A DNA stretch of 64,000 nucleotides from Amphiura filiformis (lineage: Eukaryota; Echinodermata; Ophiuroidea; Amphilepidida; Amphiuridae), in contig NC_092646.1 of assembly GCF_039555335.1 (NCBI RefSeq), positions 22,194,258 to 22,258,257 of the forward strand, given 5' to 3'. Every line of letters begins with the position of its first letter. Within the stretch, counting starts at the first letter, position 1. Of the stretch, positions 4 to 60,241 are shown piece after piece. A program made the position numbers and the translations under genes. The notes beneath the pieces were generated by a model. The model was given only the letters and a program-made list of their open reading frames with translations. It ran no database searches and had not been told where the DNA came from.

Positions 4-13291
<13,288 letters not shown>

Positions 13292-17180: not shown

Positions 17181-17790
17181 TCAAGTAAGTCAAATTAAGT
17201 AACTACCAAAGTAGCTGTATACTCTGCTGTATACATGTGTAAAATTAAAATAAACAGTTCACGAATGTGTATCTATGTCAGTGTTTTGTGTTCGATTTGG
17301 TTTAAAATGTTGTTCAAAGTGGAACAATTTGACCCGGGTAATTTGAAACCACTTTGATTAAGATCTGAGCCAGTTTGATCTTTTACCCCTGTGGATACCA
17401 AAACTTGACTTTTGACCTTTATGGCTATCAAGAACTGTACATCGTCGATAGGTCAAACTATACTTTTCTGAATAGTAATGGAGAGTGGAATGAATTGGTA
17501 TGTGTTTCTTTAGTCAGAATCGACCGATTTTGAAATTTGAGCCCTGCATTAGCTGTCATTTTTGTTTTATGTAAATTAGCATTTTCCGCCATTTCCATTT
17601 TTCTCCTTGTTTGGTATATATGTTGTTAGGGATGTCTTTTAGAAATACTTACAACAAAAAGCATTTATGTTCCAATTTTGTATTGAGCAAACGTAAATTG
17701 GCTTGGAAGCTATTACAGAGCTGAACATCACATTTCTCCATCATAGACGTCAAGTCGCTGCAGCAACAGTCCTCTAGTACAAAATGCACA
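17181..17790. other. Intergenic stretch with part of a dispersed repeat
   Basis: Sequence at 17388-17560 (AAGAACTGTACATCGTCGAT, GGTCAAACTATACTTTTCTG) matches an arm of the palindromic element near 58590-58740. Otherwise I see nothing. Confidence 0.5.
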
Positions 17791-20618: not shown

Positions 20619-20639
20619 GAAGCGGTTGCTGTACTTCTA

Positions 20640-21058: not shown

Positions 21059-21261
21059 TACCGTAAAACCTCGTCTACAAGTATATAGAGTGCTTCTGAT
21101 GAAAGCTAAATTAATCCAGGCGCCATTATGGAATTTGAGCAAATAAATTACAGATCTAAGCATATACAAACAAGTATTATTGTAAGACCAATCTATTGTT
21201 TTTGCATATTTACGCATGTATATTAATTTAGCTTTCATCAAAAACACGAGATTTTACGGTA
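21059..21261. mobile_element. TACCGTA MITE in the leader intron of receptor 1
   Basis: TACCGTAAAACCTCGTCTAC on the left mirrors CGAGATTTTACGGTA on the right; inner arms AAGCTAAATTAAT and ATTAATTTAGCTTTC also mirror. The orthologous insert is in unit 2 (31558-31775), so it predates the duplication. Confidence 0.75.
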
Positions 21262-21451
21262 TCCTCTATCGTGTCATAGAAGATAGGCAGGTCCAATACT
21301 CTTGGGATTCATTTGTTCCATTTAAATGTATACCACGGCGAGAGTGAAACAATTTATTTTACTTTATTTTGATATAATTTTTATAAATTTCCCCAATATT
21401 TTTTTTTAAATATTTTAGGTTCGAAACGCCCACAAACAAACTATTGATAGC

Positions 21452-22606
21452 ATGAAACGGGGAAGTGTTAATAACACCACCGACACCATGGTAAGTGAAT
21501 TGGCATGGACGTCAAATTCATCAGATTCGGCAAATTCAGACGAATATTTACTCGATTCACAGCTGCCGATTTTATACACTTACATCGCACTAACGATATG
21601 TACGTCTTTGGTTGGTACTACGGGAAACATTGTTGTTATTTTAGCCGTTGTAACGTCAAAAAAACTTCGCGTCTTGCAAAATGTCTTCATAGTCAATCTA
21701 GCCGTAGCGGATCTTTTGGTCACTGCACTGGTGAATCCCTTCGCCATAGTGGGTGCTTTAGATATGGGAAAACTTTTCTACCGTCTGCCAGCATTATGTG
21801 AATTTCTTGCAACATTAACCGTCACTAGCTGTTGTTGTTCCATCTGGAGTATAAGCGCAGTTTCCCTAAATCGGTATTTCTACATATGCCACCGAGTGAT
21901 TTATGCAAAGATATACAACCAACGCACCGTTCCTTTTATGGTAACTGGGTTGTGGCTCATTGCCTTTCTTTTAGATTTACCAAACTACCTTGGATGGGGT
22001 GATCATATATTTGAAACCCGTCAATTTATTTGTAACTATGATTACTCCTACAATTTCACATACACTCGTTATTATTTAATCGCGTTGGGAGTCATAGTGC
22101 CAGTTTGCATAGTATGCTTTTCGTACTTTCGTATTTTCATGACATTTCGCGGTTCAAGTCGCCGAATGCGACAACACGCCACGAATCCATCGTCAAATCA
22201 AAATCTAGAGAAACCTCAAACAGCTGACAGACGTGTACTAAAAACTGTCGGCATAATTTGTATTGTGTTCTTGGTAATGTGGACACCGTACTCTATAAAC
22301 GTCGTCTTTGACTTACATTATCAATTTTGGTGGTTTCTCCTGTCTGCCTTCATGGCATTCACCAATAGTTCTGTTAATTTTTTGGTCTACGCCATAGATA
22401 CGAACTTCCGGCAAGCCTATTCGGAAATATGGAAGGGATTTGTATCCAGATGCGATTGTTTGGTGACGAAAAGTGAACCAATTCTGACAACTGGGAGAAA
22501 GAAGACGGGACCTGATACAAATATTGACATAACTGAATCGCCGGGAAAAACCAATGTAGCATTCGAGTCTACAGTGACCTCAAATGTCACACCAAATTAC
22601 TTATAA
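21452..22606 (+). CDS. Melatonin-receptor-like class A GPCR, copy 1
   Basis: 384 residues with seven hydrophobic helices. Landmarks: GN58-59 in helix 1, LAVAD with Asp87 in helix 2, Cys116 and Cys194 for the extracellular disulphide, NRY (140-142) in place of DRY, NRYFYICH as in melatonin receptors, Trp168 in helix 4, Pro217 in helix 5, MWTPY (276-280) in helix 6, and NFLVY (309-313) where most receptors have NPxxY. The N-terminus carries Asn-X-Thr/Ser sequons; two Cys after helix 8 (SRCDC) could be lipid-modified. The coding part is one exon (from 21419). The ATG at 21452 is chosen because the spliced leader brings an in-frame TAA. The ligand is unknown. It could instead be an orphan rhodopsin-class receptor merely close to the melatonin group. 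Confidence 0.9.
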   Translation: MKRGSVNNTTDTMVSELAWTSNSSDSANSDEYLLDSQLPILYTYIALTICTSLVGTTGNIVVILAVVTSKKLRVLQNVFIVNLAVADLLVTALVNPFAIVGALDMGKLFYRLPALCEFLATLTVTSCCCSIWSISAVSLNRYFYICHRVIYAKIYNQRTVPFMVTGLWLIAFLLDLPNYLGWGDHIFETRQFICNYDYSYNFTYTRYYLIALGVIVPVCIVCFSYFRIFMTFRGSSRRMRQHATNPSSNQNLEKPQTADRRVLKTVGIICIVFLVMWTPYSINVVFDLHYQFWWFLLSAFMAFTNSSVNFLVYAIDTNFRQAYSEIWKGFVSRCDCLVTKSEPILTTGRKKTGPDTNIDITESPGKTNVAFESTVTSNVTPNYL

Positions 22607-22790
22607 AACAAGAATTTGTCTTTAAAAAAGACAAGTTCACGGATCAGGTGTATAGTACTTTGAGCTAATTTGGTCTAACATTTTTAAATGTTAGACCAAA
22701 GTAGCTCAATAAAATAGCTTTAAAAAGCTTATTAAATAAAGTAGCTTATTAAAATATTCATATCTAACCTACTCTTTACTTTAATACAAC

Positions 22791-22796
22791 AATAAA
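22791..22796 (+). promoter_or_regulatory. Polyadenylation signal of receptor 1
   Basis: AATAAA about 185 nt after the stop; the surrounding sequence is conserved at 33191 in unit 2. Confidence 0.5.
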
Positions 22797-23286
22797 TAAG
22801 TGATATGAGGCTTCATAATGATATCTGCGTCTTGACTCTGGAAAACATTTTTTTTAAACCTCATTTTGCATTTAGGTTTTTAAGCCACCTACAGGATCTC
22901 ATTTCGCATAAAGGTTTTAAGCCACCTACAGGAAACAAATTTGGCTATAACTTCGAAGAAAATTGTATCAAAATGTCCACTATTATTGCATGTTGGCAAT
23001 ATCTTAAATTGGTTGAATATAATTTTCTATACATATGCAAAATGCCTTATCACTAACGTAAACAAATTGCTTAGTCTTGCTAGCTTTTGTCAGGGATATT
23101 TGTCTCATAGCCCTGCTTTTATGAACACAAATCATTACTTTGTAACAGAAAATATATTATACAGGTTTATACACACATTGCTGGGTTAATACAAGAGTCA
23201 ATAAACATTCAATTAACTATAGATAATGGACTTAGTTTTGTGCAATGTAGTTATATTGAACTTTTTCTGAAGTAAATCGCCCGTTG
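22797..23286. other. Noncoding sequence downstream of receptor 1, shared with unit 2
   Basis: The words AAGCCACCTACAGG occur twice close together. The block is nearly identical to 33200-33690. Open frames here are short and not preserved in length between the copies. Confidence 0.6.
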
Positions 23287-23875: not shown

Positions 23876-24836
23876 ATTGTAGCTTGCTGCATATTTTTTT
23901 ATACAGATAGGCCTAATCACAAAGTAAACATTCAGTATACTTACCATGACCTGCCCAACTAGCTTTGAATAACCAATCGGTTATGTGTATTGTCAGCATG
24001 TGATGGTTATAAGCCAATTGCAAACATGTTTATAAAAAGGCTAAAAATTTCCTACACTGAAGAGACTCACTGCCAGATTTTAGGGCTAATTTAGTCCTTG
24101 TCATGTGGGGCAGTATTAGATAAAGGCATACAAACTAGGGTATGAGATATTAGGAATTATTTGATTATTATCCTAGCCTCTTAACCATAGGGTTGGTGCG
24201 CTACAATACCTATTCAAGACACAGGATATGGGATAAACTGTGCATATGAGATGTCGGGGAAAGTGGCATCATTTCACTGCCGTGAAAAAATTATGAGTAT
24301 TTTGATGACTTTTCAAAATACAAACCAAACCTGCGGGGCAAGCTAGTCACAATGGGATAGCTTCATAAAATTGTTCAGAGGAAAAAGCTCCAAATTATGA
24401 ATCTCTGTACCCCAGCTCTATCCTTTATAATTCAGATACTAGCCTCGCATGCATGCATGGATGGTGGTGTGTTTATCTATTTTTGTCTTGTTTTGAAATA
24501 TAATGCTTAGCACTCTTCTTTTATTTCAGTGCAGCAGACAGTAAAGTTCAATTTATTATATTAAATTGAAAAGTATGGAGTTGATTGGACAAAATAGAGG
24601 TGTGGTTGCTTGGTTCTAAAAATATCCATGAAAAGAAAGGGGTGTTATATGTTTCTTCCATGACCAATGCCTCCAAAACTGCCAGACAAACCTGTGGAAT
24701 TAAGAAATTTTAAAAGTATAAATTTGACATGAAATTAACAAGAAAAACATCAAATCCCCAAAACATGGCTGATTTAATACATGAAATTATACTGGTACGG
24801 ACAAATGCACAGATTTTACAACAAAAGATTGAAGAT
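23876..24836. other. Noncoding duplicated sequence
   Basis: Matches 33691-34630 of unit 2 with small indels. No coding exon; several landmarks (GGGGCAGTATTAGATAAAGG, GCATGCATGG) are shared by both units. Confidence 0.6.
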
Positions 24837-25548
24837 TTAAGGTTGGTCTGAACCCTGGAATTATGTAAACTTTCGGGCCTCATAACTGCTAAATTGTTGG
24901 TCTAAAGTATATAAAAGTATACATATTTAGAATGGCAAAGACTTGATAAGTTCATCTGAGAGGTCAAATTTGGGCCAAAATGGCACTTTGGCCCAAAATC
25001 TAAAAAATTGGTTTTTGGCCCACTTCTTTTTGTGCACCGTAACAAAAAAATTCTTGGGCCAAATTTTTTTTGAAACTAATTTTTAAAAACTAGATCAAAA
25101 TATCTGGGACACGTTTTTTCATTTTTTTGAATTTCGACTAACTTTGAGAAATTTGCGCCAAAAATGGTCAAAAAATGCTGATTTTTCAAAAAAATCATAA
25201 AAAAGCCCGATTTTGGCACAAATTTCAAATATTTTTGGTGAAATTGGTCAAAATTCAAAAAAATGAAAAAACGGGTCCTAGATATTTTGATCTAGTTTTT
25301 AAAAATTAGTTTCAAAAAACTTTTGGCCAAGAATTTTTTGTTACGGTGCACAAAAAGAAGTGGGCCAAAACCGGTATTTTTAGGATTTTGGGCCAAAAGT
25401 GCCATTTTGGCCCAAATTTGACCTCTCAGATGAACTTATCAAGTCTTTGCCATTCTAAATATGTATACTTTTATATACTTTAGACCACCAATTTAGAAGT
25501 TATGAGGCCCGAAAGTTTCCATAATTCCAGGGTTCAGACCAACCTTAA
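24837..25548. mobile_element. Long palindromic element with TTAA ends, copy 2
   Basis: TTAAGGTTGGTCTGAACCC on the left mirrors GGGTTCAGACCAACCTTAA on the right, palindromic over nearly its whole 712 bp. Unit 2 lacks it (34622-34650), which confirms the insertion. A short stretch after it repeats sequence from about 24400-24425, as if a template switch happened on integration or repair. Confidence 0.85.
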
Positions 25549-26190
25549 AGCGCAGTGCAGTGAATCTCTGTACCCCAGCTCTATCCTTACTTTCAAATTT
25601 GAAGTCTTGGTGGATGTTGACTTGCAACTGAGGACAGTTAGTGAACCTAATGGGCAGTGAGCAATCCATGGTATGACTTGTTCTACATTGGTCTCTATCA
25701 TTTATTAAAGAGGTATATTAGAAGACAGCATTTGACGAGACAGGTAGCAGGTGCCATGCTAATTACTTGGGAAATCTTAGTAGCATTGGAAAAATGTCAG
25801 ATTGATTCACCTCCATAAACTCCTCCTGGTTTTGTTAAATCTTAGGGCAAACAAAAAAAGGTCTGTCTCAAAGCTTGCGCGTGCATTGTAAAATCGTGAG
25901 ATTTGAAAAAAAGAAATGCTGAAATTTGTTTTATTTAAAAAAAAAACGTTTTCGGAAAAATTCGGTAAAAATCTCAAAATACCATATCCGGAATTTCGCA
26001 TTTCGTATTTGTCTTCAAACCACCACTCGTGAGCTTTGAGACGACCTTTTTTTTTCTTTTTTTTTTTTTTTTTTGCCTTATAATTTTATATGATACAGTC
26101 AATTTTAATGGGAAATATGGGTTGAAACATGCATGGAAATGTGTAACACCAGTTTAAGGTACTAGGAGTCTGTGAAATTGACGTGCTACA

Positions 26191-30660: not shown

Positions 30661-31207
30661 GATTACATTTTTTTACACAGAAGTTTGTAACCCATACCTA
30701 AATATAAAAGTCTGAAATGTGCTACCCGAATCTGCCGCACAATTCCCTACTCACCTTTTAACTAAGACCAACCCCGGGCGTAATGTAACGGTAAATACAG
30801 AGTTTGTATTTTGAAATCAAAGCATGAAAAAGTATCCAATCTATGTAACGGAATGTAATTCGGTTTAGGTTACGATTAACATCAACATGGTATAGGTTTA
30901 ATAGTTTTGAGGAAACTGAATATAATATCTGCATGCATATGAGCAAAATGGGACTATTATATATAGTAGCAAAATGGACGCACTCTGATAGGTAACACCT
31001 ACTAGACTGAATTCTTCGGCCTCTACTGCGCATGTTTATTGTGTGATGCTTGTCAAGTGACCAGAATGTTGATGATTTAGGTTGGCAATATGCGGCAACA
31101 CAGGCACCTGACATATTTAAACACAAATCACAGTCTGTGGAAACACAGGCATCTGACTATAATATTTAAACGCAAATCCAGAAATTCTGAAACTGAGGAC
31201 TTTTTTC

Positions 31208-31259
31208 CATTGGTTCGAGTGGAGATCCAGACTTAGAGTGGCTGCTGATCATTATATAG
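31208..31259 (+). promoter_or_regulatory. Core promoter of receptor 2
   Basis: ATTGG near 31209 and TATATAG at 31253-31259, in the same arrangement as in unit 1. Confidence 0.55.
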
Positions 31260-31279
31260 GAAGCGGTTGCTGTACTTCT

Positions 31280-31319
31280 AACCTTATCACCATTGTTTAA
31301 GAAGTGGACGATATAACAG
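31280..31319 (+). other. Noncoding leader exon of receptor 2
   Basis: CTTCTAACC through GTGGACGATATAACAG, then a GT donor at 31320. It would splice to the acceptor at 31932-31933, with the same in-frame TAA as in copy 1. Confidence 0.6.
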
Positions 31320-31557
31320 GTAACATTTGACATGAATTTTATATTATACTAAAACAATGAGCGGTCTCTCTAAACGTGTTTCTAGTAAATATATTGAATT
31401 GTTGTGTACATGGTCTTATATAAAGTTTCGTTCATTTTAGAATAATAGGAGCTTTTATGACGATAACTTACTTTTTAACCGAAGAAAATGGTTTTTAGTT
31501 TTATTAAACTTTTATTTATTGACTGACTAAGACCGAGAATAACCGATATAAATATAC

Positions 31558-31775
31558 TACCGTAAAACCTCGTCTACATGTATATAGAGTGCTTCTGATG
31601 AAAGCTAAATTAATCCAGGCGCCATTGTGGAATTTGAGCAAATAAATTACAGGTCTAAGCATATACAAACAAGTTTTTTTGTAAGACCAATCTATTGTCT
31701 TGGCATATTTACGCATGTATATTAATTTAGCTTTCATCAAAAACACTATATGCTTGTAGATGAGGTTTTACGGTA
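31558..31775. mobile_element. TACCGTA MITE in the leader intron of receptor 2
   Basis: Same insertion as 21059-21261. It keeps slightly more of the right terminal repeat (ATATGCTTGTAGATGAGG), so this copy is closer to the ancestral element. Confidence 0.75.
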
Positions 31776-31966
31776 TCATCTCGTGTCATAGAAGATAGGC
31801 AGGTCCAATACTCCTGTGATTCATTTGTCCCATTTAAATGTATACCATGGCGAGAGTGAAACAATTTATTTTAAAGTACTTTATATTGATATAATTTTTA
31901 TAAATTTCCCCAATATTTTTTTTTATATTTTAGGTTCGAAAGGCCCACAAACAAACTATTGATAGC

Positions 31967-33124
31967 ATGAAACAGGAAAGTGTTAATAACACCACCGACA
32001 CCATGGTAACAAGCGAAGTGACATGGACGTCGAATTCATCAGATTCGGCAAATTCAGACGAATATTTACTCGATTCACAGCTGCCGATTTTATACACTTA
32101 CATCACACTAACGATATTTACGTCTTTGGTTGGTACTACGGGAAACATTGTTGTTATTTTAGCCGTTGTAACCTCAAAGAAACTTCGCGTCATGCAAAAT
32201 GTCTTCATAGTCAATCTAGCCGTAGCGGATCTTTTGGTCACTGCACTGGTGAATCCCTTCGCCATAGTGGGTGCTTTAGATATGGGAAAACTTTTCTACC
32301 GTCTGCCAGCATTATGTGAATTTCTTGCAACATTAACCGTCACTAGCTGTGGTTGTTCTATTTGGAGTATAAGTGCAGTTTCCATAAATCGGTATTTCTA
32401 TATATGCCATCGAGTGATTTACACAAAGATATACAACCAGCGCACCGTTCCCTTTATGGTACTTGGGTTGTGGCTCATTGCCTTTCTTCTAGATTTACCA
32501 AACTACCTAGGATGGGGTGATCATATATTTGATACTCGTCAATTTTTGTGTAACTATGATTACTCATACAATTTCTCGTACACTCGTTATTATTTAATCG
32601 CTTTAGGAGTCATAGTGCCACTTTGCATACTATGCTATTCGTACTTTCGTATTTTCATGACATTTCGCGGTTCAAGTCGCCGAATGCGACAACACGCCAC
32701 GAATGCATCGTCAAGTCAAATTCAAGCAAAATCTCAAGCAGCTGACAGACGTGTACTAAAAACTGTCTCCATAATTTGTACTGTGTTCTTGGTAATGTGG
32801 ACACCGTACTCTATAACCGTCATCTTTGACTTACATTATCAATTTTGGTGGGTTCTCTTAGCTTCCTTCTTGGCGTTCACCAATAGTTCTGTTAATTTTC
32901 TGCTCTACGCCATAGACAGGAACTTTCGACAAGCCTATATGGAGATATGGAAGGGATTTGTATCCAGATGCGATTGTTTGGTGACGAAAAGTGAACCAAT
33001 TATGCCAACTGGGAGGAAGAAGACGGGACCTGATACAAATATTGACATAACTGAATCGCCGGGAAAAACCAATGTAGCATTCGAGTCTACAGTGACCTCA
33101 AATGTTCACGGATCAGGTGTATAG
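31967..33124 (+). CDS. Melatonin-receptor-like class A GPCR, copy 2
   Basis: 385 residues, nearly the same as copy 1 across all seven helices. It keeps NRYFYICH, both extracellular disulphide cysteines, MWTPY and the F-for-P NFLLY motif in helix 7. Substitutions cluster in the N-terminus (one added residue, MVTSEVTW), helix 5 (LCILCYSYF) and helix 6 to 7 (SITVIFD, VLLASFLAF), places that can alter ligand or coupling preference. The C-terminal residues differ (SNVHGSGV) because a short palindromic block in copy 1 is absent here. Same promoter, leader exon and polyadenylation signal as copy 1. The frame is intact, so it is probably functional. Confidence 0.9.
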   Translation: MKQESVNNTTDTMVTSEVTWTSNSSDSANSDEYLLDSQLPILYTYITLTIFTSLVGTTGNIVVILAVVTSKKLRVMQNVFIVNLAVADLLVTALVNPFAIVGALDMGKLFYRLPALCEFLATLTVTSCGCSIWSISAVSINRYFYICHRVIYTKIYNQRTVPFMVLGLWLIAFLLDLPNYLGWGDHIFDTRQFLCNYDYSYNFSYTRYYLIALGVIVPLCILCYSYFRIFMTFRGSSRRMRQHATNASSSQIQAKSQAADRRVLKTVSIICTVFLVMWTPYSITVIFDLHYQFWWVLLASFLAFTNSSVNFLLYAIDRNFRQAYMEIWKGFVSRCDCLVTKSEPIMPTGRKKTGPDTNIDITESPGKTNVAFESTVTSNVHGSGV

Positions 33125-33190
33125 TACTTTGAGCTACTTTGGTCTAACATTTAATATTCATATCTAACCTACTCTGCACTTTAATACAAC

Positions 33191-33196
33191 AATAAA
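33191..33196 (+). promoter_or_regulatory. Polyadenylation signal of receptor 2
   Basis: AATAAA about 65 nt after the stop, in the block conserved with unit 1. Confidence 0.5.
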
Positions 33197-33199
33197 TAA

Positions 33200-35157
33200 G
33201 TGATATGAGGCTTAATAATGATATCTGCGTCTTGACTCTGGAAAACATTTTTTTTAAACCTCATTTTGCATTTAGGTTTTTAAGCCACCTACAGGATCTC
33301 ATTTCGCATAAAGGTTTTAAGCCACCTACAGGAAACAAATTTGGCTATAACTTTGAAGAAAATTGTATCAAAATGTCCACTATTATTGCATGTTGGCAAT
33401 ATCTTAAATTGGTTGAATATAATTTTCTATACATATGCAAAATGCCTTTCACTAAAGTAAACAAATTGTTTAGTCTTGCTAGCCTTTGTAAGGGATATTT
33501 GTCTCATAGCCCTGCTTTTATGAACACCAATCATTACTTTGTAAAAGAAAATATATTATACACATACAGGTTTATACACACATTGCTGGGTTAATACAAG
33601 AGTCAATAAACATTCAATTAACTATATATAATGGACTTAGTTTTGTGCAATGTAGTTATATTGAACTTTTTCTGAAGTAAATCACCCATTGTAGCTTGCT
33701 CATAGTTTTCTATACAGATAGGCCTAATCACCTATGTACACATTCAGTATACTGACCATGACCTGCCTACCTAGCTTTGATTAACCAATCAGTTATGTGT
33801 ATTGTCAGCATGTGATGGCTATAAGTCAATTGCAAACATGTTTATAAAAAGGCTAAATATTTCCTACACTGAAGAGACTCACTGCCAGATTTAAGGGCTA
33901 ATTTAGTCCTTGTCATGTGGGGCAGTATTAGATAAAGGCATACAAACTAGGGTATGAGATATTAGGAATTATTTCCTAGCCTCTTAACCATAGGGTTGGT
34001 GGGCTACAATACCTATTCAAGACACAGGATATGTAAGGGATAAACTGTGCATATGAGATGTGGGGGAAAGTGGCATCATTTCACTGCCGTGAAAAAATTC
34101 TTTTGATGACTTTTCAAAATACAAACCAAACCTGCGGGGCAAGCTAGTCACAACGGGATAGCTTCATAAAATTGTTCAGAGGAAAAAGCTCCAGATTATG
34201 AATCTCTGTATGCCAGCTCTATCCTTTACAATTCAGATACTAGCACCGCATGCATGCATGGGCGGTGGTGTGTTTATCTATTTTTGTCTTGTTTTGAAAT
34301 ATATTTAGCACTCTTATTTTATTTCAGTGCAGCAGACAGTAAAGTTCAATTTATTATATTAAATTGAAAAGTATGGAGTTGATTGGACAAAATAGAGGTG
34401 TGGTTGCTTGGTTCTAAAAATATCCATGAAAAGAAAGGGGTGTTATATGTTTCTTCCATGACCAATGCCTCCAAAACTGCCAGACAAACCTGTGGAATTA
34501 AGGAATTTTAAAAGTATAAATTTGACATGAAATTAACAAGAAAAACATCAAATCCCCAAAACATGGCTGATTTAATACATGAAATTATACTGGTACGGAC
34601 AAATGCACAGATTTTACAAAAAAGATTGAAGATTTAGTTACCTTACTTTCAAATTTGAAGTCTTGGTGGATGTTGACTTGCAACTGAGGACAGTTAGTGA
34701 ACCTAATGGGCAGTGAGTAATCCATGTGTTGATTTGTTCTACAACTTCTCTCATTGTATCATACAGTAAGTGCAGTGACTATGATGGATTTTGATGCTCG
34801 CAAACCAAGATGAAATATAGGCCCTGCCATGGATATTATGTAGTTTTGCAGGTCGATCCTTCATGTAATTATTTCATGTAAGCTAACCCTAATCCTAATC
34901 CGAATTCTAATCCTAACCCTAATTTTGTGTAAACTTACATGAATAACCGGTTTCCAGTACTATTAAAAAACATCAGTATCAAAATAGCTTGACAACACAT
35001 TTAATATTCATGCAAATTGATATAAAGGATAATGAAGAGATGTGAATCATTATGTTTGTGGAAAGACAGAAATGAAAATGTATTAGATGCTGTATCATCA
35101 AGCTTGAAGTAGTGACTGTTTGCCATGTATTTTCACACAAATAAAAACACATCGGAA
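33200..35157. other. Noncoding part of duplication unit 2
   Basis: Matches unit 1 without the GTGACC MITE, the TTAA palindrome and the 26191 element. A short degenerate telomere-like run (CTAATCCTAATCC, CTAACCCTAAT) lies at about 34878-34922, as in unit 1 at 26829-26870. Confidence 0.65.
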
Positions 35158-38955: not shown

Positions 38956-39039
38956 TCCAACTATAATTACAATTAGACGACATGTAGTTTTAAACGTTTC
39001 TTTTATATAATTTAAATGTTTATTTTCCGTTACTAAAGT

Positions 39040-39453
39040 AGTCAGGCTCTCACTCACACGCGAATGGGAAATAGTGTTCACTTTATGTTTGATACGGTTT
39101 CTAGATTTACAAATTTACAAATATAATGCTATAAATTAAATGTTGGGATTTTGGCCGCCATTTTGAATTTTTGAATAACCGGGAAGCCATTTTGGATTTT
39201 GTAAACTGCCTAAATGACTTTCGCATGTCTACTAACATATATTTAGACACCGAAATCACCACCATTGGCCTTAAAATACATTTTTAGTAATTTTGACCCC
39301 ATTGTAGGAGCAGGCTCCGGAAAAGCACTTTGGACACACTTTTAATTATAGTGGACTGAGGGAGCGTATTCTACGCAAAATTTCAGTCTAGAAACCGTAT
39401 CAAACATAAAGTGAACATTATTTCCCATCCGCGCGTGAATGAGAGCCGGACTA
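39040..39453. mobile_element. Inverted-repeat element with AGTCAGGCTCTCA ends
   Basis: About 65 bp at the left (GGCTCTCACTCACACGCGAA, TTCACTTTATGTTTGATACG) are mirrored at the right. Noncoding interior. Confidence 0.75.
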
Positions 39454-40502: not shown

Positions 40503-41560
40503 GTATATCGTCACCCTCATAACCAAAGTGCCTAAGTCATTATTACATGTTTTTCATTTGCAATTTTGATTTTCTGAGTAATAAACCCATAATTAATAAA
40601 AATTTCCAGCTGCATTCTTAATTAACTTGTGGAATACAGTGGCGAAGATTTCTTTTTGACATTGGGGGGGATGGGGTTGGAAAAAATCTTAAAGTATAGT
40701 GAATGCAGCACCTTTTGGCGAAATAATAAGTTGATGGTACAAATGCGCGCGAAGCCCACGAAAAATTTTGCTATTTTGAAGCTAAACTGATGAAATATGG
40801 TGCAAAAGTGGAATAAATGCGCGCGAAAATTTGCACTTTTGGGGCTAAAATGGTCAAATATGAGGTTAATTTGGTCAAAAAACCATATTCAGGTGTCAAC
40901 ATTGGGGGATGATTGTATGGACCATCCCCCCCTGGCAAAATACTGGGGGGGGTATAAATCCCCCCCCCACCATCCCGCCGGGATCTACGCCTATGATCAA
41001 AAGAGATGAATGCCACAAGTTAATTAGACTATGCCATAGTCGAATTTTATTAAAAATATGTTATTATTAGTCATGATGAACCCATTTCGTTGAACTCAAA
41101 ATTATACTGATGTTTATTAAAATTAAAGTATTCAATAGTAAAATGGTCATAAAGAGTTAAAAATATTAGACGATTAGTGACAATAAAAGTAATTGAATGC
41201 AACATTATCTTGCATAATTATAACGGCTCACTTTAATACTGAACAATTCTGATTTTGGAATCTACCAGTTTATTGATAGCGAACCCCGAAATCACTTGGG
41301 AAGCTAACAGAGGGAGTAGGGTGACTGATCAGATGTGAAAATCTATCAATTGTGCACACATTAAATCAGAGTTTTAAGCTTAAATACAATATCCAGAGTA
41401 TGCACAATGGGCAAGTGGACTACGGGGTAGTCTACAAGTTAATGAAGAATGCGACTGGAAATTTGATAAATCATGGTTTTATTACTCAGAAAATCAAAAT
41501 TGCAAATGAGAAACATGTAATAATGACTTAGGCACTTTGGTTATGAGGGTGACGATATAT
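40503..41560. mobile_element. 1.06-kb inverted-repeat element in the leader intron of copy 3
   Basis: GTATATCGTCACCCTCATAA and CCAAAGTGCCTAAGTCATTA on the left are mirrored at 41462-41560. The interior has a G-rich insert (about 40625-41000) with CAGTGGCGAAG and CTACGCCTATG near its ends. This block accounts for most of the longer leader intron in copy 3. Confidence 0.75.
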
Positions 41561-41620: not shown

Positions 41621-42690
41621 GTTTTGAAGCGCACTCAAAAAACAACTGATAACAATAACATGAAAGAGGAAAGTGTAACATCACTAATATCATGGTAACA
41701 AGGGACGTGACATGGACGTCGAATTCATCAGATTCAGCAAAATCAGACAAATCTTTATTCGATTCTCAGTTACCGATTTTATACACTTACATCGCATTAA
41801 TGATATTTATATCTTTGATTGGTACAGCGGGAAACATTATTGCTATTTTAGCCGTTGTAACCTCAAAGAAACTTCGCGTCTTGCAAAATGTTTTCAAGTC
41901 AATTTAGCCGTAGCGGATCTTTTAGTCACTGCACTGGTGAATCCCTTCGCCGTTTTGGGAGCTTTAGATATGGGAAAGCTTTTCAACCGTCTGCCAGCAT
42001 TATGTGAATTTCTTGCAACATTGGCCATCACCAGCTGCTGTTGTTCCATCTGGAGTATAAGTGCAGTTTCCCTAAATCGGTATTTCTTCATATGCCATCG
42101 AGCGATTTACACAAAGATATACAACCAACGCACCGTTCCTTTTATGGTAATTGGGTTGTGGCTCATTGCCTTTCTTCTAGATTGACCAAACTACCTTGGA
42201 TGGGGTGATCATATATTTGATACTCGTTAATTATTGTGCAACTATGATTACTCATACAATTTCTCGTACACTCGTTATTATTTAATCCCTTTAGGAGTCA
42301 TAGTACCACTTGGCATACTATGTTATTCGTACTTTCGTATTTTTATGAAATTTCGCGGTTCAAGTCGCCGAATTCGACAACACGCTACGAATGCATCGTC
42401 AAGTCAAAATCAAGAGAAACCTCGAGCAGCTGACAGACGTGTACTAAAAACTGTCGCCATAATTTGTATTGTGGTCTTGCTAATGCCGGGCACCGTACTC
42501 TATAACTGTCCTCTTTGACTTACATTATCAATTTTGGTGGGGTCTCCTAGCTTCCTTCTTGGCATTCACCAATAGTTCTGTTAATTTTCTGGTCTACGCC
42601 ATAGACAGGAACTTCCGACAAACCTATTCCGAGATATGGAAGCGATTTGTATCAATGCAGCATTCGAGTAATCGGTGACCTTAAAGGAGT
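41621..42690 (+). pseudogene. Melatonin-receptor-like GPCR pseudogene, copy 3
   Basis: Aligned to copies 1 and 2, this copy has a 4-nt loss in the N-terminus, a 1-nt loss in helix 2 near 41895 (TTTTCAAGTC), TGA for Leu at 42183, TAA for Gln near 42228, a 1-nt gain near 42488 that destroys MWTP, and a deletion of about 110 nt in the C-tail. Helices 3 to 5 remain readable in two blocks (41900-42182 and 42234-42480). The TATA box is also lost. It is in the same orientation about 9 kb beyond copy 2, as expected from an older duplication. Confidence 0.9.
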
Positions 42691-43299: not shown

Positions 43300-45060
43300 C
43301 GGTCAATATCCTCAGCTGCAACACTAAGATTGCAACACCCCTCCTTCACATCCTTGACCCTCAGCTACATGTACAAAACTAAGTAATTATATTTATAGTA
43401 CCTTTCGTCACATCCTTGATCCTCCCCTAGTATCACTAAGAGATTATATTAATACCCTCCTTCACATCCTCAGCTACAACAGTAAGAGATTCTAATACCC
43501 CCTATACATCCTTAATCCTCAGCTACAACAATAAGAGATTATAACACCCTCCTCCATCACATCCTTGATACTCAGCTACAACACTAAGAGATTAAACTAC
43601 CCTCCTTCACATCCTTGATCGATCATCAGCTACAATACTATGTGATTATACCTCCGTCACATCTGTGATCCTCAGCTACAACACTAAGAGATTATAATAC
43701 CCTCCTCCACATCCTTGATCCTCAGCTTCAACCCCGGGGCTTCAACACTAAGTGATTACAATTAAACCCTCTTGCACATCCTTGTTCCTCAGTTACAACA
43801 CTAAGATTATACCAATACCCTCCTTCACATCCTTGATTCTCAGTTACAACACTAAGGGCTTATAATACCCTCCTTCACATCCTTGATCCTCAGCTACAAC
43901 AATAAGATTATATTAATACCCTCCTACACATCCTTGATCCTCAGCTACAACACTAAGTGATTATAATACCCTCCGTCACATTCTTGATCCTCAGCGACAA
44001 CTCTAAGAGATTATAATACCCTCCTTTGGATCCTTAATAATCAGCTACTACACTAAGTATTTATAATACCCTACATCAAATCCTTGATCCTTAGCTGCAA
44101 CACTAAGAAATTTTAATACCCTCCTTCACATCCATCCTCAGCTGCAACACTAAGAGTTGTGTTATAATCACAGTGTTGCAGCTGAGAATCAAGGATGTGA
44201 AAGAGGGTATTAATATAATCTTATTGTTGTAGCTGAGGATCAAGGATGTGACAGAGGGTGTTATAATACACTTAGTGTTGTAACCGAGGATTAAGGATGT
44301 GAAGGATGGTATTATAATCATGAAGGTACATGTATTACAATCACTTAGTGTTGCAACCGATGATCAAGGACGTGAAGGAGGATGTTATAATCACAGTGTT
44401 GCAGCCCAGGATCAAGGATGTGAAAGAGGGTATTAATATAATCTTATTGGTGTAGCTGAGGATCAAGGATGTGACGGAGGAAAAATCACATAGTATTGTA
44501 GCTGATGATCGATCAAGGATGTGAAGATGGGTATTATAATCTATTTGTGACGGTGGGTATTGATATAGTAGTGTTGTAGCTACGGATCAAGGATGTGAAG
44601 GAGAGTATTACAATCTCTTAGTGTTGTAACTGAGGATCAAGGATGTGACGGAGGGTGGTATAATCTCTTAGTGTTGTAAGCATATCTATGTATCATTGGA
44701 TGTAAAGGAGGGTGTTATAATCTTAGTGTTGCAGCTGAGGATCAAGGATGTGAAAGAGGGTATTAATATAGTCTTTTTGTTGTAGCTGAGGATCAATGAT
44801 GTGACGGAGGGTGTTATAAAATCTTTATGTTGTAGCTGAGGATCAAGGACGTGACGGTGGGTATTAAAATAATCTTAGTGTTGTGGCTGAGGATCAAGGA
44901 TGTGAAGGAGGGTATTATAATCTCTTGGTGTTGCAGCTAAGGATCACGGATAAAGGAGGGCATCAATATAATCTTAGTGTTGTAACTGAGAATCAAGGAT
45001 GTGCAGGGTGTATTATAATCTATTAGTGTTGTAGCTATGGATCAAGGATGTGGAGGAGCG
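43300..45060. repeat. Inverted pair of 50-bp tandem arrays (fold-back structure)
   Basis: From 43300 to 44150 about 17 units of CACATCCTTGATCCTCAGCT-type sequence, with CAACACTAAGAGATTATAAT, run in one direction. From 44155 to 45060 about 18 units run as the reverse complement. The turn is at 44140-44170 (CTAAGAGTTGTGTTATAATC). Units differ by substitutions and small indels. No open frame and no clear target duplication. Confidence 0.9.
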
Positions 45061-45061
45061 T

Positions 45062-45590
45062 ACATTTCCCTCCAACTTTCGCATTGAAATCTCCTGTGAC
45101 CATGGTGACGATGGTTATGTCTCTCGTATTTATGTCATCTATCGCCTTCTGGAGATCATCATAGAAGGGCTTGATCTCTTCCAGGGTCTCTTCTTCTGTT
45201 GATGTTGAGGTGGGCGCATATCGCATATTCATTGGCGAATGATGATAATTCGCCCAGTAACCGGGTTGTGCCCAAGGACACATCTGGGAACATCTGAATT
45301 CGCTATGAAAGCAACTCCGTGTTCTCTTCTGGTGTCCTTTCCAAGTAGTAAACTATGTCGTTGTTGGGTGTGGTGAAGTGGCCCTTTCCTGTTCATCTCA
45401 TTTCAGAGATCGTTTTCTGTCAATTTTCATTGGTTCATTGTTCTCACGTTCCAAGTTCAGAACTTTAAAGTTGTTTTCCAAAGGTTTCGTCTGGCATCAA
45501 TATACCACGGAACCATCGACTTCAACAGCACCTCCAAATGGCTTTAATGTTGAAGGCTTGAAGCGTCATGGGTACAAAACATGATGCCAT
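45062..45590 (-). mobile_element. LINE endonuclease fragment, RTE-like
   Basis: Across several frames the minus strand reads TWNVRTMNQ, then RREHGVAFIANS and, after 45283, RYAPTSTSTEEETLEEI, LQKAIDDI and GDFNAKVG. These are the ordered blocks of an AP-like LINE endonuclease. The match stops next to the end of the inverted 50-bp arrays. Confidence 0.75.
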
Positions 45591-46112: not shown

Positions 46113-46310
46113 TTAAGGTTGGTCTGAACAGTCTCATATCCCTGGTCTGAACCCTGGAATTATGGAAACTTTTGGGCCTCATAACTGCTAAATTGTTGGT
46201 GTAAAGTGTCTAGTTTATCTAGTTTTTAAATGAGCATTTTGGCCCAAATTTGACCTCACAGATGAACTTTGCCATTCTTAATATGTATACTTTTATATAC
46301 TTTAGTTGGT
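46113..46310. mobile_element. Internally deleted TTAA palindrome, copy 3
   Basis: TTAAGGTTGGTCTGAAC, CCCTGGAATTATGGAAAC and CCTCATAACTGCTAAATTG match the family ends. Most of the arms are missing and the right end is degraded. Confidence 0.7.
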
Positions 46311-49230: not shown

Positions 49231-49402
49231 CCCCCCCCCCCCCCTTCCCCCTGGCTATGCAGCTGCACATTACCATAGCAATAAGCAAATCGTTTCTTTT
49301 ATACGTTTTGCTATTGGGTTAATATTAATAATAATTGGGGTTTTGCTATTGGGTTAATAATCATTGGGGTTTCTTTCAAAATGTCTGTCGGAATGCATTA
49401 TA

Positions 49403-51156
49403 CAGTCTAAACGCAGGACAACCGATCTTTTGTTCTGCTTAGTCGCGCTAAAAGTCGATCGATACATGTTAAAATCAACACAATTCCGAGATACACCTTT
49501 TTGCTATGAAATTTATTTTCTCGGTCAAATATAAAGCAAAATTTTTTTTTTCTTCAGTCATGTCAAATAAAAACATAGTGCTTGGATGAACATTTTTTTT
49601 AAAAATCCTGGTGTTAAAATTAAGCATCAAATTGTGTCTTTTAGTGTGATATTTTTGATTTTTATAGGCCTTTAGTTCGCCCGTGAGCTTTTTACAGAAT
49701 TCATTTTTAGCGTCTCAAACTAATATAGTTTGCTAAAGAAAGATATTTCCCACCTCTGTAAAGCACATCGTGTGGGTCTATATATTATAGTTTTGTCAGA
49801 ATTTCCGTTTTTATTTTACCCTTTTCCCTTTATGCTCCGAAAATGTCAAACTTAGTACTTTACCTCGAGAGCAACCAGCAAAAATAATCGATATTTCAAT
49901 TGTTGTCAACCCAGGTCCCTTTTCCATTGAAAACCAGGATTGCCTGACCAGCGATTTGGTAGCCCAAATCCCCAATTCTGGTAAATGAGGTGGATTTTGG
50001 AAATTTGCTCCCGTGATAGCCTGCAATTTCAATTTATAGGGGCTATGGATTCCATGATTATGAAAACCATTTTGTCTGTTTGTTTGTTTGTTTGTTTATT
50101 TATTTACCTAGGATGAGGTCCATGGGAAAATCCACTGTCCAAACCTAGAAAAATTCGCGTGTTATTAGAGGGGATTTTAATTTTCTGTCCCTCCTATCTC
50201 CAGGTGAATTTTGAATGACCCCCCCCCATCGCGGGTTGGCATTTTCATTACACCCTTCAGACTTGCGTTCGGGTTTGTGTAGGCCTATTTGTCATAATTT
50301 AGCGCTATAGGACCTACTTTCTAAATGTATAGCTATAGCCGTGCTATATAAATATTATAAGGTACCGGTATGTAATATTATGTAGGCCTATGGGGGTGGG
50401 GTGGGTACTCAACACATTTTAACCATGACTTACAATGCAAGGCTCATTGTTACCATAAATGATTTTTCCTTTAGGTCATTATAATAGGTTGTTATAAACT
50501 TCCGTATTTAACCTTGTATTGTTTTGGCTGCTTCATTATGACTTTCGGTGGGTTTAAGCAATTTCAAACAAACAAAAAACAAAAGGCACTATACCGAAAC
50601 GCTAGGTAATTTCTTTGCTATATTGAAGTTCTGGCAAAACTGTATCCAGGCCGGGCACCCAGAGATATCGATCCACAATGCTAGTATTTCACTCGTGGAT
50701 TTTAAATTTATTTTCAGCTGGTAGTCAAAAATTATGACAAAACTATGATATATCGCTCACGGTGATGTGCGTTAGAAAGTTGGGAAAAATCCTTCTTTAG
50801 CGAACTATATTACTTTGAAAAGCTAAAAGGTTGATCCAAAAAAAAGGCTCACGGGCAGAGTTGAAGCCTATCAAAATCGAAAATCTTACACTAAATGACT
50901 GAATTTCACGACTAAGTTTAACACTAAGATTTGAAAAAAAAATACAGTATCAAGCATTACAGTTTTTCCTGACATTTACTGAAAAAATGAAAATTATTGC
51001 TTTTCATTTGGCCGAGAAAAAAAATTTTACACTGAAAAGGTGTAACTCAAAATTTTGTTCATTTGAATACCAAATTCGATCGTTTGTATTGCCTTATTAA
51101 ATGACTGAGTGAGCCTTGCAGAACAATAACAATCGGTTGTCCAGCGTTTAGACTGT
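49403..51156. mobile_element. 1.75-kb mariner-like fold-back element
   Basis: CAGTCTAAACGCAGGACAAC on the left mirrors GTTGTCCAGCGTTTAGACTG on the right. Arms match for several hundred bp (TTCTCGGTCAAAT, GCCCGTGAGC, TTTTAGTGTGATATTTTTGA). TA flanks both ends (49401-49402, 51157-51158). CAGT ends with TA target sites are typical of the Tc1/mariner group. No transposase frame is present in the centre. Confidence 0.8.
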
Positions 51157-51829
51157 ATACTTTATAGAACGATGAATTTGATTATGACCGGGGATTATGA
51201 CTTTGATTTCAGGCAACATAATCTATAGTTGCTATGTTTCAAAATGTATTATTATGTCACCGCAATATCAATATCTATTGAATTATCGGAGGATTCTGGG
51301 CGTCGTGCACGTTCAATAATATTCCTAGGTGTCATTGAACTATTGCATTTGAATTTATTGATATTTTCTAATTATTTTTTCAAGATCATCGGATACAGGC
51401 TATATCAAAATGATTGGTATCCCTCAGTTTAGAAGGTTATTGAAAAGAAAGCTTCATATGAAATGCTATTTTGGATCCTCTTGAAATGAAATTTATATAA
51501 TGTTGCATTCTTATCCATATAATACAACCGTGACTGATGGGTACCAATCGTTTTGATATGATATAATACAGTGGACCTCTGCCAGGAAAACTTTTTTTAT
51601 CAATTTTTTTATTTAAGATTACGAAGGGTTAGACCCCTTATACGTTCCCGGGATACGTTCCACAAAAAGTAATTCATGCTGACTAATAAACTTTTTTATC
51701 AGCATTAACATTTTACCAAAGTATTTTAATATTTTAAAATACTATAAAAACATTATTTTAAAATCATCATCATGTTTATTAAACAATTCTGCAAAGAAAA
51801 CTATATAACACAGAAAACTTTTCTATGTC

Positions 51830-53090: not shown

Positions 53091-53431
53091 TACAGGCTAT
53101 ATCAAAATGATTGGTACCTACATGTATCAACATTGGATACTTCCTGGGCCTCAAGGAAGAACAGATGATGAATTGTCTTTTCAACTGATTGAGTGTCCCA
53201 GGTTAAAGAAGAAATAAAACAAACAAACAAACTCATGAAATGTCCAGAATGTATAGTTTATACAATAATCTAGTGAAGAAACTGATGGTGCCCTTGGAAA
53301 TTAAGTTTTGCAGAGTGGTCAAAATTCAAAATTGTTCAAATTGTGTTAAAACCAATACCAAAGTATTCTTCTGGTAATAACGATTCAGGAAATGTATAGT
53401 AAATTTGATCCATCTGCGGCTTATCAGTCTA

Positions 53432-53639: not shown

Positions 53640-54202
53640 ATGGGTTATTGGTAAAAGGTCGCAGGTCAACATTTGGGATCCACGTGGGTCAAAACTTTCC
53701 TCCAATTTTGATGAAAATAGTCGAAAAAGAATCACTTGTATTGATATAGCAATCCAAACAAAGAATAGTTTGCACTATCTAGGATATTTAGTTACCAAGG
53801 AAGCGCAGCAAAATAGGTCACAATCAATAGAGCATAATGGGTTCTGGCCCTTTTCGCTGCGTTACCTGCATACAAGATATGGTGCGGTTTTGGATTATTA
53901 TAAAAGACAAACAATTTGAGACCATTTTATCAATATCGGAGGATATTTTCTATTTTGACCTGTATGCCCAAATGTTGACCTTCCATCTTTTCGCAAATAA
54001 CTCCAGACTGCCATGTCGTAGATATGTCAAAGTATACATTTTCTTAACCCTTCTTGTGACAGGAATATTTTAGAATAGGTTTTAACCAAATCTGAACAAT
54101 TCTTCGTAAACTTGACCTATATATATCTCGGAATGACCAAGGGTGTACCTTGTCTAAGATTGACTAATGCTAAATCTTTAAGTTGTGACAAATTTGCAAG
54201 TA

Positions 54203-55499
54203 CGAGGGTCATTCAAAAAATTCTACCTTCATCGTCACATCTATGTTACTCTTAAATCTTGGCTACAAAATAAAAACTTGTTTGATGAAAATGTGATTTT
54301 GAGTTGTTTGGAGATATGTTGGTGAAAGCTAATACAGATTTGGTACGTCGGAAACGGTTACAAACTTAACCCAAAAGTGTAACAAGCATCATATTGTAGC
54401 TTTGGATAAATAAAATGTTTTTAAGATGCGGTTGTCCAACTGCTCACTCACAGGGTTCGCAGGTTTTTGCCGCAGGTGGAAAAAACCGCGGTTTTAACCA
54501 CTTGGCAAAAACAGTTTTTGCCAGTTTTTGCCGGCAAAAATGGCAAAAACTAAAAAAGTGATTTATACTTCAGTTTTTTCATCTCAAAACAAATAATTAA
54601 ATTACAAAAACAAGTTCCCGAGTGTAACAAGGCCAGATTTTGTAATTATAAGCAATATATTAAGAAATTAAAGGCATGCGTTTTCATTGCTCAAGGCAGT
54701 TAACCGAAATGTGGCATGTATCAAATTCAAAACTTTTTCATTTTAAGGACTTAATGAGACAAAAAATATGTTGAATGATTCGTTAAAAGTTGTGTGTTAC
54801 TCTTTATGAGCTTTCTGTGTCACTTTTTATTATTTGAGTGACTATATGTGAGTTTTTGCCAGTTTTTGCCATTTTTGCCGGTTTAAACCAGGCAAAAACT
54901 GGCAAAAACAGTTTTTGCCAGGTTTTTGCCACTTTGCCGGCAAAAACAGGTTTTTGCCGGCAAAAACCGAACCCTGCTCACTCAGAATTAATATTTTGTG
55001 ACTATTTAAAATAAAACGCGTTTTATAGAAGAAAACATCGAAGGCTTCAACAGACATGTTAGTGAAATTTGCAAGATTACAAATGGACTACTTTTAAGGG
55101 TAATTCGTAATTACGTCTTTATTTTAAGTAGTGGAGAAATATGATGAGCAGTTTGTTAATAAACCTTAACAAAATACAATAAATGTGCATGCGACTTAAC
55201 GGACTTATTTTATTTTAGCTTATAACCCAATTAATACGATTTGAAAAGTGCTCACCCGATCGAAGTAAGGCAACCTTTACATGCTTTATAATCAATATTA
55301 TGCTTTCTTTTTCTGACCGTTTCCGAAGTACCAAATCTGCATTCGCTTTAACCAACACATCTTAACAACCAAACATTACATTTTAATCAAATAACTTTTA
55401 TTTTGTAGCCAAGATATAAAAGTATAATCATGGGTAATTTAACTTCCATAAGATAACAGAGATGTGACGATAGAGGTAGAACTTTTTGAATGACCCTCG
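54203..55499. mobile_element. Mariner-like element with CGAGGGTCATTC ends, carrying a nested insert
   Basis: CGAGGGTCATTCAAAAAATT on the left mirrors TTTTTGAATGACCCTCG on the right, with TA on both sides. Long arms match (TCTTGGCTACAAAATAAAA; TTTGGTACGTCGGAAACGGT). The hAT-like element at 54451-54976 lies inside. It ends 200 nt beyond the stop of the minus-strand coiled-coil gene and may contain its polyadenylation signal (AATAAA on the minus strand near 55400). Confidence 0.8.
54451..54976. mobile_element. hAT-like element with TTTTTGCC words and 8-bp target duplication
   Basis: CAGGGTTCG at the left mirrors CGAACCCTG at the right; CTCACTCA flanks both sides (54443-54450, 54977-54984). Near each end GGCAAAAAC and GTTTTTGCC recur in both orientations more than ten times. 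The interior is AT-rich and noncoding. Confidence 0.9.
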
Positions 55500-55699
55500 T
55501 ATAGACTGTTGTCCGGAAGTGTATCTCTTTGAAGGAAACGTGCGTTATCATATTCTTTCTTCCGAATTGCCATTGATTGCTTATGGCGAATGTGGACGCA
55601 CCGGGTACGCACCTAGTGATAATTATTCTAATTACATACTTTCTGAACATACCGAACTTTTTTTCGTATATCTGGCCTCAAATGAGCTTGGATTCATCA

Positions 55700-57502: not shown

Positions 57503-60241
57503 TAGGCCAATCAAATTAAAAAAATCACCCACCACTAATTATTGTAACATAAATCATTTAATCACCGTTCATTTCAGAAAAGTAAAAAAACATATTAAAG
57601 ACCCCGAAAGTTCAAGTAGTGGAACAGTGCCTAATTTGCATAAATCCAAAATGGCCGCTTATGCAGGGGTGAAATTTCAAATTTGGTAAATTGTTGTTAA
57701 AACCATACCAATGCATTTCTTTCGTCATAAGGATTCAGAAAAAGTATAGTTTGACCTATCTCCGATATACATTTTTGTCAAAATTTGGATTCCAGAGGGA
57801 CAAAAAATGAAAAAATGCTCTGATTTTAATAAAAATGGTTTCATACTTGCAGAAACATTTCAAAGAATATTTTGCCATATCTCAAGTGGTTTGTTACCTT
57901 CGTAACATGGCAAAGAAGATCAAAATCCATTGAGCCCTGTTGACATTGACCTTGATGTACACCAGGCACAAAAAGAAACTCGTCAGTTATATTCATCCTT
58001 GCTGTTCAATAAATTGATAATTTTGGATTATTCTGAAATATACATTTTGTTAATTGGACTTTTCTTTCTCATTTGACACCCTGTTCGTGAACATTGAGCA
58101 AGAATTGACCAAGATATGCGCCTCAAACTCTCAAACCCCAAAATGAAAAGTTGTAATTTTAACGATTCAATTGTGCCTGTTACACTGTGTGATTTATTGA
58201 TTGGTCTGTGGTGCTTGTGTGCGATACAACGGTGCGTTCCCATTGAAAATCGTTGAAAATGCAACTTTTGATTTTGGGGTTTGAGGCTTTGGAGGCGCAC
58301 ATCTTGGTCAATTCTTGTTTGTTTTTCACGAACAGGGTGTCAAATGAGAAAGCAAAGTCGAATTCACAAAATGTATATTTCAGAATAATCCAAAATTATC
58401 AAGTTATTGAACAGCAGGGATGAATGTAACTGACGAGTTTCTTTTTGTGCCTGGTGTATTTTGTGATGTTACGGTACCTATGTAACAAAACATCCAAAAC
58501 AATGCAACTTTTCTCATTTTGATTTATATTTGCCAAAGGAACAATTTGCAAATCTGCAAATTGCAGCATATTTCCATTGTAAACGACTGTGGACCCCAAC
58601 ATTTGGCCTTTGACCTTATTGTCTATAACTCAAGAACTGTATGTCGGAGACTGGTCAAACTATACTTTTTTCTGAATCATTATGATGAGAGCAAGACATT
58701 GGTATGGTTTTAAACAAGATTTCACCAAATTTTCACCCCCTGCATAAGCGGGGACTGCTCTATAATCCGAAGGTTCTATAATCCGAAGGTTCTTTAGTCC
58801 GAAGGTTCGCTAGTCCGAACACGTGTTCATAGCATTCGTTAGTCCGAATTTTAAAAGAGGTTCTCTAGTCCGAAAAAAATTGAAAAGAGGTTCTTTATTC
58901 CGACGATTCTTTATTTCGAAGGTTCTATAGTCCGAATTTTAAAAACGGTTCTCTAGTCCGAATATGAAAATAGTCTCTATAGAAAAAATTTAAAAAAGGG
59001 TTCTATAGTCCGAATATGAAAATAGTCTCTATAGTCCGAATTTTAAAAGGGTTCTATAGTCCGAATATAGAAATAGGCTCTATAATCCGAATTCAAAAAA
59101 AGGTTCTCTAGTCCGAAATTGTAAAACGGTTCTATAGTCCGAAACGGATACCGTGTTCTTTAGTCCGAATCAGTAAAAAGGTTCTATAGTCCGAATATTT
59201 AAAACATTAACATATACTGCGCCCTCTAGCTAGATAATACTAAAGAGTATATATGGCAAACGGGCGCACACCATCAAATCACGATGTAATGACGATGTAA
59301 TGTAGATGGATTCCGGTAAAAACAAAAATCTTTTTAGAGATATTTTGGCCTTTCTGTGGAAAAACGAGAGGCATGTTATAGCTTAAATAAATATTTGAGA
59401 TCTATACATGAACTTGGATCGCCCAACAAGTTGCATAACACAATTTTTTAATAAAGTAGGCCCTCGGATTGAAAAATGGCCAGAAACGGGTATTCAGGGT
59501 CTACCCTGAACGGGTCAAAAATGAAAAAGGGATAAAAAATGAAGAAAATATCACCAGAATAAAGGTGAACGTTAATGTATGCTACGAAAAATATCCAGAG
59601 AAACCAACCATGTTAAACTTCAGCGGATTTATATTTAACAAGTGATTATTTGACACTGAAACAAATGATAAAAATAAAATTCGGACTATAGAACCCGTTT
59701 ACCAATTCGGACTAAAGAACACGGCATCCGTTTCGGACTATAGAACCGTTTTGCAATTTCGGACTATAGAACCTTTTTTTTAAATTCGGACTATAGAGCC
59801 TATTTCCATATTCGGACTATAGAACCCTTTTTAAAATTCGGACTATAGAGCCTATTTTCATTTTCGGACTACAGAACCGTTTTTAAAATTCGGATTAAAG
59901 AACCTCTTTTATTACTCGGATTAGGGAACCTTTTTGGAAATTCGGACTATAGAACCTTCGAAATAAAGAACCGTCGGAATAAAGAACCTTCGTAATAAAG
60001 AACCGTCGGATTAAAGATCATTCGGACTAAAGAACCTTCGGAATAAAGAACCTTCGGACTATAGAGCTTCCACCGCATAAGCAGCCATTTTAGATTTATG
60101 CAAACTTGATTAGGCATTGTTCCTTGGACGTTTGGGGACTTTTGATATTTTCTTTAATTACTTTTCTGAAATGAATGGTGATTAAATGGTTTCTGTTACA
60201 ATGTGGTTTAAGCCCTGATTTTCCTGAATTTGATTGGCCAA
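57503..60241. mobile_element. Palindromic element with GGCCAATCAAATT ends, split by a nested insert
   Basis: GGCCAATCAAATT at 57505 is mirrored by AATTTGATTGGCC ending at 60240. The arms match throughout (ATTTAATCACCGTTCATTTC, GAAATTTCAAATTTGG, GGTCAAACTATACTTTTTCT), with the centre near 58190 (CACGAACAGGGTGTCAAATG on the far arm). The right arm is broken at 58750-60074 by another element. Related arm pieces lie at 17388-17560 and 53330-54100. Confidence 0.8.
58750..60074. mobile_element. Fold-back element with arms of TTCTATAGTCCGAA repeats
   Basis: The left arm (58750-59208) holds about 20 units of GGTTCTATAGTCCGAA with variable spacers. The right arm (59678-60074) holds a similar number as the reverse complement, and the order of variant units is mirrored (for example CGAAACGGATACCGTGTTCT on the left). 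Ends are GGGGACTGCTCTATAATCC and its inverse GGACTATAGAGCTTCCACC. GCATAAGC flanks both sides (58742-58749, 60075-60082). A unique noncoding centre of 470 bp lies between. It interrupts the outer palindrome, whose other arm gives the empty site. Confidence 0.9.

Follow-up and report, generated by a model that had tools for sequence, protein, structure and literature searches.

Sea urchin TU elements have long inverted arms, ~15-bp tandem repeats and 8-bp target duplications, and are very like the element described here in layout. Duplications of 8 bp are also made by members of the hAT, P and Merlin superfamilies. In Aedes aegypti, the MULEs Muta1 and Muta5, assigned to the Phantom group (PMC6446971), make 8- or 9-bp duplications; Muta1 has a 10-bp end motif followed by nine 12-bp repeats with 3-4-bp spacers, that is, a period of 15-16, and Muta5 an 8-bp end motif and nine 15-bp repeats (PMC5225508). 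The authors who described Muta1 class it as a type 2 Foldback, subterminal repeats of 9-15 bp were found in 10 of 12 long-TIR Aedes MULE families, and both Muta1 and Muta5 have non-autonomous relatives that vary in word number and differ in their centres (PMC5225508). In root-knot nematodes (Meloidogyne), the Mutator/Foldback family Tm1 ends in two unlike 7-bp sequences and carries tandem repeats of ~14 bp, whose number differs between the two arms; a 1080-bp member, a paralogous empty site and a mean arm identity of 93% are described for it (PMC3169594). Fold-back arms have evolved in different superfamilies, P among them (PMC3573991; PMC3169594). Galileo belongs to the P superfamily; the THAP domain of its transposase binds at sites within the tandem repeats of the arms (PMC3688188). 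Target duplications measure 7 bp for Galileo in D. mojavensis and 8-10 bp for Tetris, and the internal repeats are ~210-220 bp long (PMC3573991; PMC3688188; PMC4079207).

In the window (the whole 64-kb stretch of DNA that was analysed; G+C 36.8%), positions 58750-60074 hold a fold-back element of 1325 bp, made of two mirrored arms and a 476-bp centre, with GCATAAGC on either side (Table 1). The element is very probably a non-autonomous fold-back DNA transposon of the cut-and-paste kind; its insertion struck one copy of a local repeat and gave rise to an 8-bp target duplication, and a MULE transposase is the likeliest partner. The arms consist of one word in two spacings and in mirrored order, and there is no long reading frame. 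Long inverted arms with internal tandem repeats, the defining trait of the fold-back structural class, are present, and the element is otherwise an ordinary member of this known class. Its word, the 16-bp GGTTCTATAGTCCGAA, was not found in the literature searched. The earlier note had likened the element to Drosophila FB and MULE-derived elements, an apt analogy, and had not recognised the word; the word is indeed unfamiliar, but its layout was already known from Muta1, Muta5 and Tm1.

Table 1. Features of the fold-back element and of the two copies of its target repeat that lack it (window positions).
Feature	Position	Strand	Remarks
Paralogous empty site, one GCATAAGC	57541..57774	-	197/246 columns (80%), 23 gap columns, none at junction
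Second, more distant empty copy, continuous; octamer reads GCATTAGC	17389..17575	+	135/193 columns (70%) to joined flanks
Target duplication, left copy GCATAAGC	58742..58749	+	Identical to 60075-60082; once in empty paralogue 57541-57774
Left terminal 7 bp, GGGGACT	58750..58756	+	3/7 positions equal to GGTGGAA of other end (counted by eye)
Left arm, 19 words	58750..59199	+	
Outer zone of left arm, four contiguous words, period 16	58756..58819	+	
Irregular left block, 69 bp: two words, spacers of 13, 10 and 14 bp	58820..58888	+	Only one right-arm word aligned
Two tight left words, head to tail	58889..58920	+	Aligned with right-arm words 6 and 7
Inner zone of left arm, 11 word-and-spacer units, period 26 (25 in one)	58921..59199	+	
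Centre, 476 bp	59200..59675	.	No second match in window; no long reading frame
Right arm, 18 words	59676..60074	-	
Inner zone of right arm, 11 word-and-spacer units in mirrored order, period 26 (27 in one)	59676..59956	-	
Outer zone of right arm, seven contiguous words, period 16	59957..60068	-	
Right terminal 7 bp, GGTGGAA read inwards	60068..60074	-	
Target duplication, right copy GCATAAGC	60075..60082	+	Matches left copy

The two copies of GCATAAGC stand directly at the borders of the element and agree at 8/8 bp; at these fixed borders the chance of an 8-bp match is 2.6e-5 by base composition, and 10 of 200000 random places gave one. Comparison of the window with itself matched 57541-57774, on the opposite strand, to the sequence on both sides of the element (58635-58751 on the left, 60075-60202 on the right). 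When the flanks were joined with one octamer kept and aligned to the paralogous copies, they matched 57774-57541 in one alignment with a single octamer, which establishes an insertion, an 8-bp duplication and the exact ends. Both ends are thereby fixed by an empty site that is paralogous, not allelic. Since the paralogues run through the junction, the target was a copy of a local repeat that gained the element and a second octamer. That the flanks are a local repeat, with two copies lacking the element in the window, is new. Against the transposon reading stand the facts that the copies of the target repeat are paralogues and not alleles, and that self-comparison of the 64-kb window found one copy of the element and the Pfam scan described below no transposase. 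The earlier note had placed the element at 58750..60074, which is right to the base, with 8-bp flanking duplications that are borne out by GCATAAGC on both sides and its single occurrence in the empty paralogue; both paralogous empty sites also support its description of a mobile fold-back element. The target is an old interspersed repeat, found at 57541-57774, 58635-60202 (interrupted) and 17344-17579, with parts at 53328-53400 and 53997-54089; two of its copies lie ~1 kb apart in opposite orientation.

Matches to GGTTCTATAGTCCGAA with at most 3 mismatches number 33 in the window against 0.38 expected; all except one, at 17504, lie inside the element (32/33), 16 per strand. Word counts in Table 1 come from a looser cut (at most 6 mismatches), at which the two opposed arrays of about 20 copies described in the earlier note become 19 and 18; the left inner-zone word at 58973 is badly corrupted, with 6 mismatches. 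The arms, 450 bp on the left and 399 bp on the right, align (58775-59199 against 60065-59676) with 80% identity over 427 columns; counted block by block, identity is 44/48 in the three outer words, 90/110 in the next block and 184/197, plus two gap columns, in the eight inner units; right-arm words 6 and 7, those aligned with left 58889-58920, are its last two tight words. Folding the element as a single strand gives -367.3 kcal/mol, a value that at such length, without a shuffle control, merely illustrates the pairing of the arms. Both arms switch from a period of 16 in the outer zone to 26 in the inner zone, a less usual trait that adds about one helical turn. The spacers between two words of the inner zones (n=20) are mostly A/T-rich, and 18 are exactly 10 bp long, with one of 9 and one of 11. 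No similar case of an arm with two spacings was met in the passages on related elements that are cited here. In the irregular left block, 33/35 positions of 58840-58874 equal those of 58928-58962, which makes local duplication of inner units the probable origin of this piece. No further match to the centre (tested as 59205-59675) turned up in the window at E 0.01, in keeping with the unrelated centre of the earlier note, which had also seen no transposase; the element holds no stop-free frame above 61 codons. Having no recognisable coding, the element would be non-autonomous and moved in trans.

The element resembles Muta1 and Muta5 in its duplication of 8 bp (8 or 9 bp there) and in having a tandem short word, with a period of about 15-16, behind a short end motif. 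Its 7-bp ends and period-16 subterminal words are of a kind that is common, not universal, in MULEs of the Phantom/Muta group. The likeness is one of layout; the element lacks a transposase, its arms of 450 and 399 bp compare with 145 and 151 bp, and it has a second zone of period 26. With Tm1 it shares composite tandem-repeat arms, unequal word number, unlike 7-bp ends and a paralogous empty site, but duplications of 9 bp are the commonest in Tm1 (PMC3169594) in contrast to 8 bp here. Kinship of the word with Tm1 motif C, suggested by eye by a shared TTC and TCCG, was not significant (2073 of 5000 shuffles reached the score). Galileo and Tetris of Drosophila also have long inverted arms with internal tandem repeats and non-autonomous copies, but their internal repeats are ~210-220 bp long against a 16-bp word, and the 8-bp duplication, confirmed by the empty site, differs from the 7 bp of Galileo.

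The variant units of the two arms occur in mirrored order, as had been claimed. The arm-arm score is 526, against 336 +/- 25 (largest 458) after shuffling the 18 right-arm units, and none of 2000 shuffles reached the observed value. The 11 inner units alone gave a score of 411, and the largest shuffle reached 379 (0/2000). Among these 11 units, identity is 0.864 in register, 0.749 off register and 0.747 within an arm; permutations gave 0.759 for the in-register value, and 0/200000 reached 0.864. Spacers alone (6/200000) and words alone (641/200000) pointed in the same direction. The mirrored partner is the best single match for only 6/11 left inner units, because other units resemble them too. 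The mirror is also incomplete, in that left 58820-58888 aligns with one 16-bp right-arm word and the outermost 7 bp differ (GGGGACT / GGTGGAA). An outer-to-inner trend in arm identity was not significant (Spearman 0.23, p 0.51). The higher identity in register (0.864) than within an arm (0.747) implies that the units had diverged before the arms came to be copies of one another. The earlier note had read the mirrored order as arms copied whole or kept alike by gene conversion; descent of one arm from the other fits, but gene conversion is not indicated by this order on its own in the one copy compared, because any ITR with internal repeats shows it if one arm descends from the other. One arm would then be an inverted copy of the other, and after this copying the outer zone of each arm may have gained and lost words separately, as suggested by the unequal outer-zone word numbers and the 33/35 local copy at 58840-58874.

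A second inverted array in the window (43308-45062) served as a control for the order test, and 137/1000 shuffles reached its score, so that its order is not mirrored; since this array fails while the element passes, the test separates both cases. The control array holds 16 + 17 units of a ~50-bp word (anchor count), is nearly centreless, has no direct repeat of at least 5 bp near the ends taken for it, and adjoins what appears by eye to be LINE endonuclease sequence. It looks like ordinary inverted satellite or minisatellite DNA, and the tandem words of the element might suggest that the element too is such DNA and was never mobile. This reading is extremely improbable: the arms are bordered by an exact duplication of 8 bp and their units are in mirrored order, both of which speak against it, and the empty paralogous site refutes it unless that site is a deletion product. 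Mirrored order would likewise result if the fold-back had been made in place by replication template switching within an older insertion, but the arms stop no more than 7 bp short of either end of the inserted segment and for this reason most simply came with the insertion, which makes such an origin very improbable.

By analogy to described elements, the arm words are probably transposase-binding sites. A transposase encoded elsewhere would bind the repeated words, the many sites would raise its affinity for the ends and promote their pairing, and the enzyme would cut at the short end motifs. An alternative that contests this binding-site part alone is that the word arrays have no function, having arisen by slippage and unequal exchange, and travel with ends that suffice by themselves for movement. 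The differing word number of the outer zones and the local copying within the left arm fit such an origin, and the 2013 Galileo paper calls repeat binding untested in Foldback and Phantom elements (PMC3688188). However, 18/20 measured inner spacers are exactly 10 bp long and binding sites do sit in the tandem repeats of Galileo (PMC3688188); functionless arrays are rather unlikely. The change of spacing from 16 to 26 bp makes it possible to ask cleanly whether the short words of fold-back arms bind transposase. A period of 16 bp corresponds to about 1.5 helical turns and one of 26 bp to one full turn more. The predicted binding word, set at 16 bp near the ends and 26 bp inside with a switch in both arms, could form a landing array of two registers, in which one multimeric transposase would grip the inner words for capture and the outer words for cleavage. 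This idea is improbable; if true, it would be a new architecture of a transposon end.

Assignment of the transposase to the MULE superfamily, with Phantom/Muta as the most likely group, is the somewhat favoured analogy. The 8-bp duplication fits the MULE Phantom/Muta range of 8-9 (8-10) bp; confidence is kept modest because the P superfamily, too, has fold-back arms and duplications of 8 bp are not confined to MULEs. The element could be of the same kind with a different partner, namely a transposase of P (as in Galileo), hAT, Merlin or any other group that duplicates 8 bp of target, or of sea urchin TU, which contests the MULE part alone and is quite possible, if short of even chances. TU, with its ~15-bp tandem repeats in long inverted arms and its 8-bp duplications, lends weight to such a partner, as does Galileo, whose fold-back arms belong to the P superfamily. 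The 7-bp duplications and ~210-bp internal repeats of Galileo count against it, as does the frequency of a short word behind a short end motif in Aedes MULEs (PMC5225508).

Among the window's open reading frames (stop-to-stop, at least 75 aa, n=117), 47 were scanned with Pfam, mostly longer ones and some in inverted-repeat elements, and no transposase match was found; the 70/117 left out often overlapped scanned ones, and short exons would be missed. Beyond receptors and the LINE, the scan gave three weak matches below Pfam cut-offs, none a transposase. Rfam and tRNA scans of the window returned nothing. The viral contig collection held 0 matches for the paired word and 0 for the single 16-mer. 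In the prokaryotic contig collection, four bacterial loci carry TAGTCCGAA, twice each in L001, L003 and L004 and five times in L002. The sequence around the matches was inspected in L001 (160 bases), L002 (296 bases) and L003 (141 bases); these three loci hold short AGTCCG-like repeat runs without the full 16-bp word and were judged unrelated. The L002 locus (5359-5591, at the end of a Cytophagaceae MAG contig) has two arrays that face each other, one with a 15-bp unit (AGTCCGAAGGGAATT-like) and one with a 21/14-bp unit (CGGACTATCGACTT-like); this inverted repeat pair was also judged unrelated to the fold-back element. Short forms of the word had a lone match in the PMC full texts searched, a human CFLAR esiRNA, which is a coincidence. 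The element is fully bounded and has an empty site nearby, so its word and ends can be used for finding the family and its transposase.

The window also contains two full genes and one partial gene for rhodopsin-type receptors and a LINE with endonuclease and reverse transcriptase, contents that suggest animal DNA. A segment that carries a rhodopsin-type receptor gene is present in copies at 20089-23286, 30727-33691 and 41655-42653, which are 87-96% identical by piece, the third matching in part, and form a local gene family. Inverted-repeat elements whose ends begin with TA (by eye) occur at 40504-41559, 49399-51159, 54201-55501 and 39039-39453 and are likely Tc1/mariner-type relics or MITEs; none of the other inverted-repeat elements of the window that were inspected by eye has ends in common with the fold-back element. 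A palindromic family of ~700 bp with ends TTTAAGG(G/T)TGGTCT... is represented by near-complete copies at 14386-15079 and 24836-25551 and a fragment at 46143-46305. A 117-bp tandem repeat occupies 7893-8477 in five copies (96% matches), and an open frame runs through the array on both strands.
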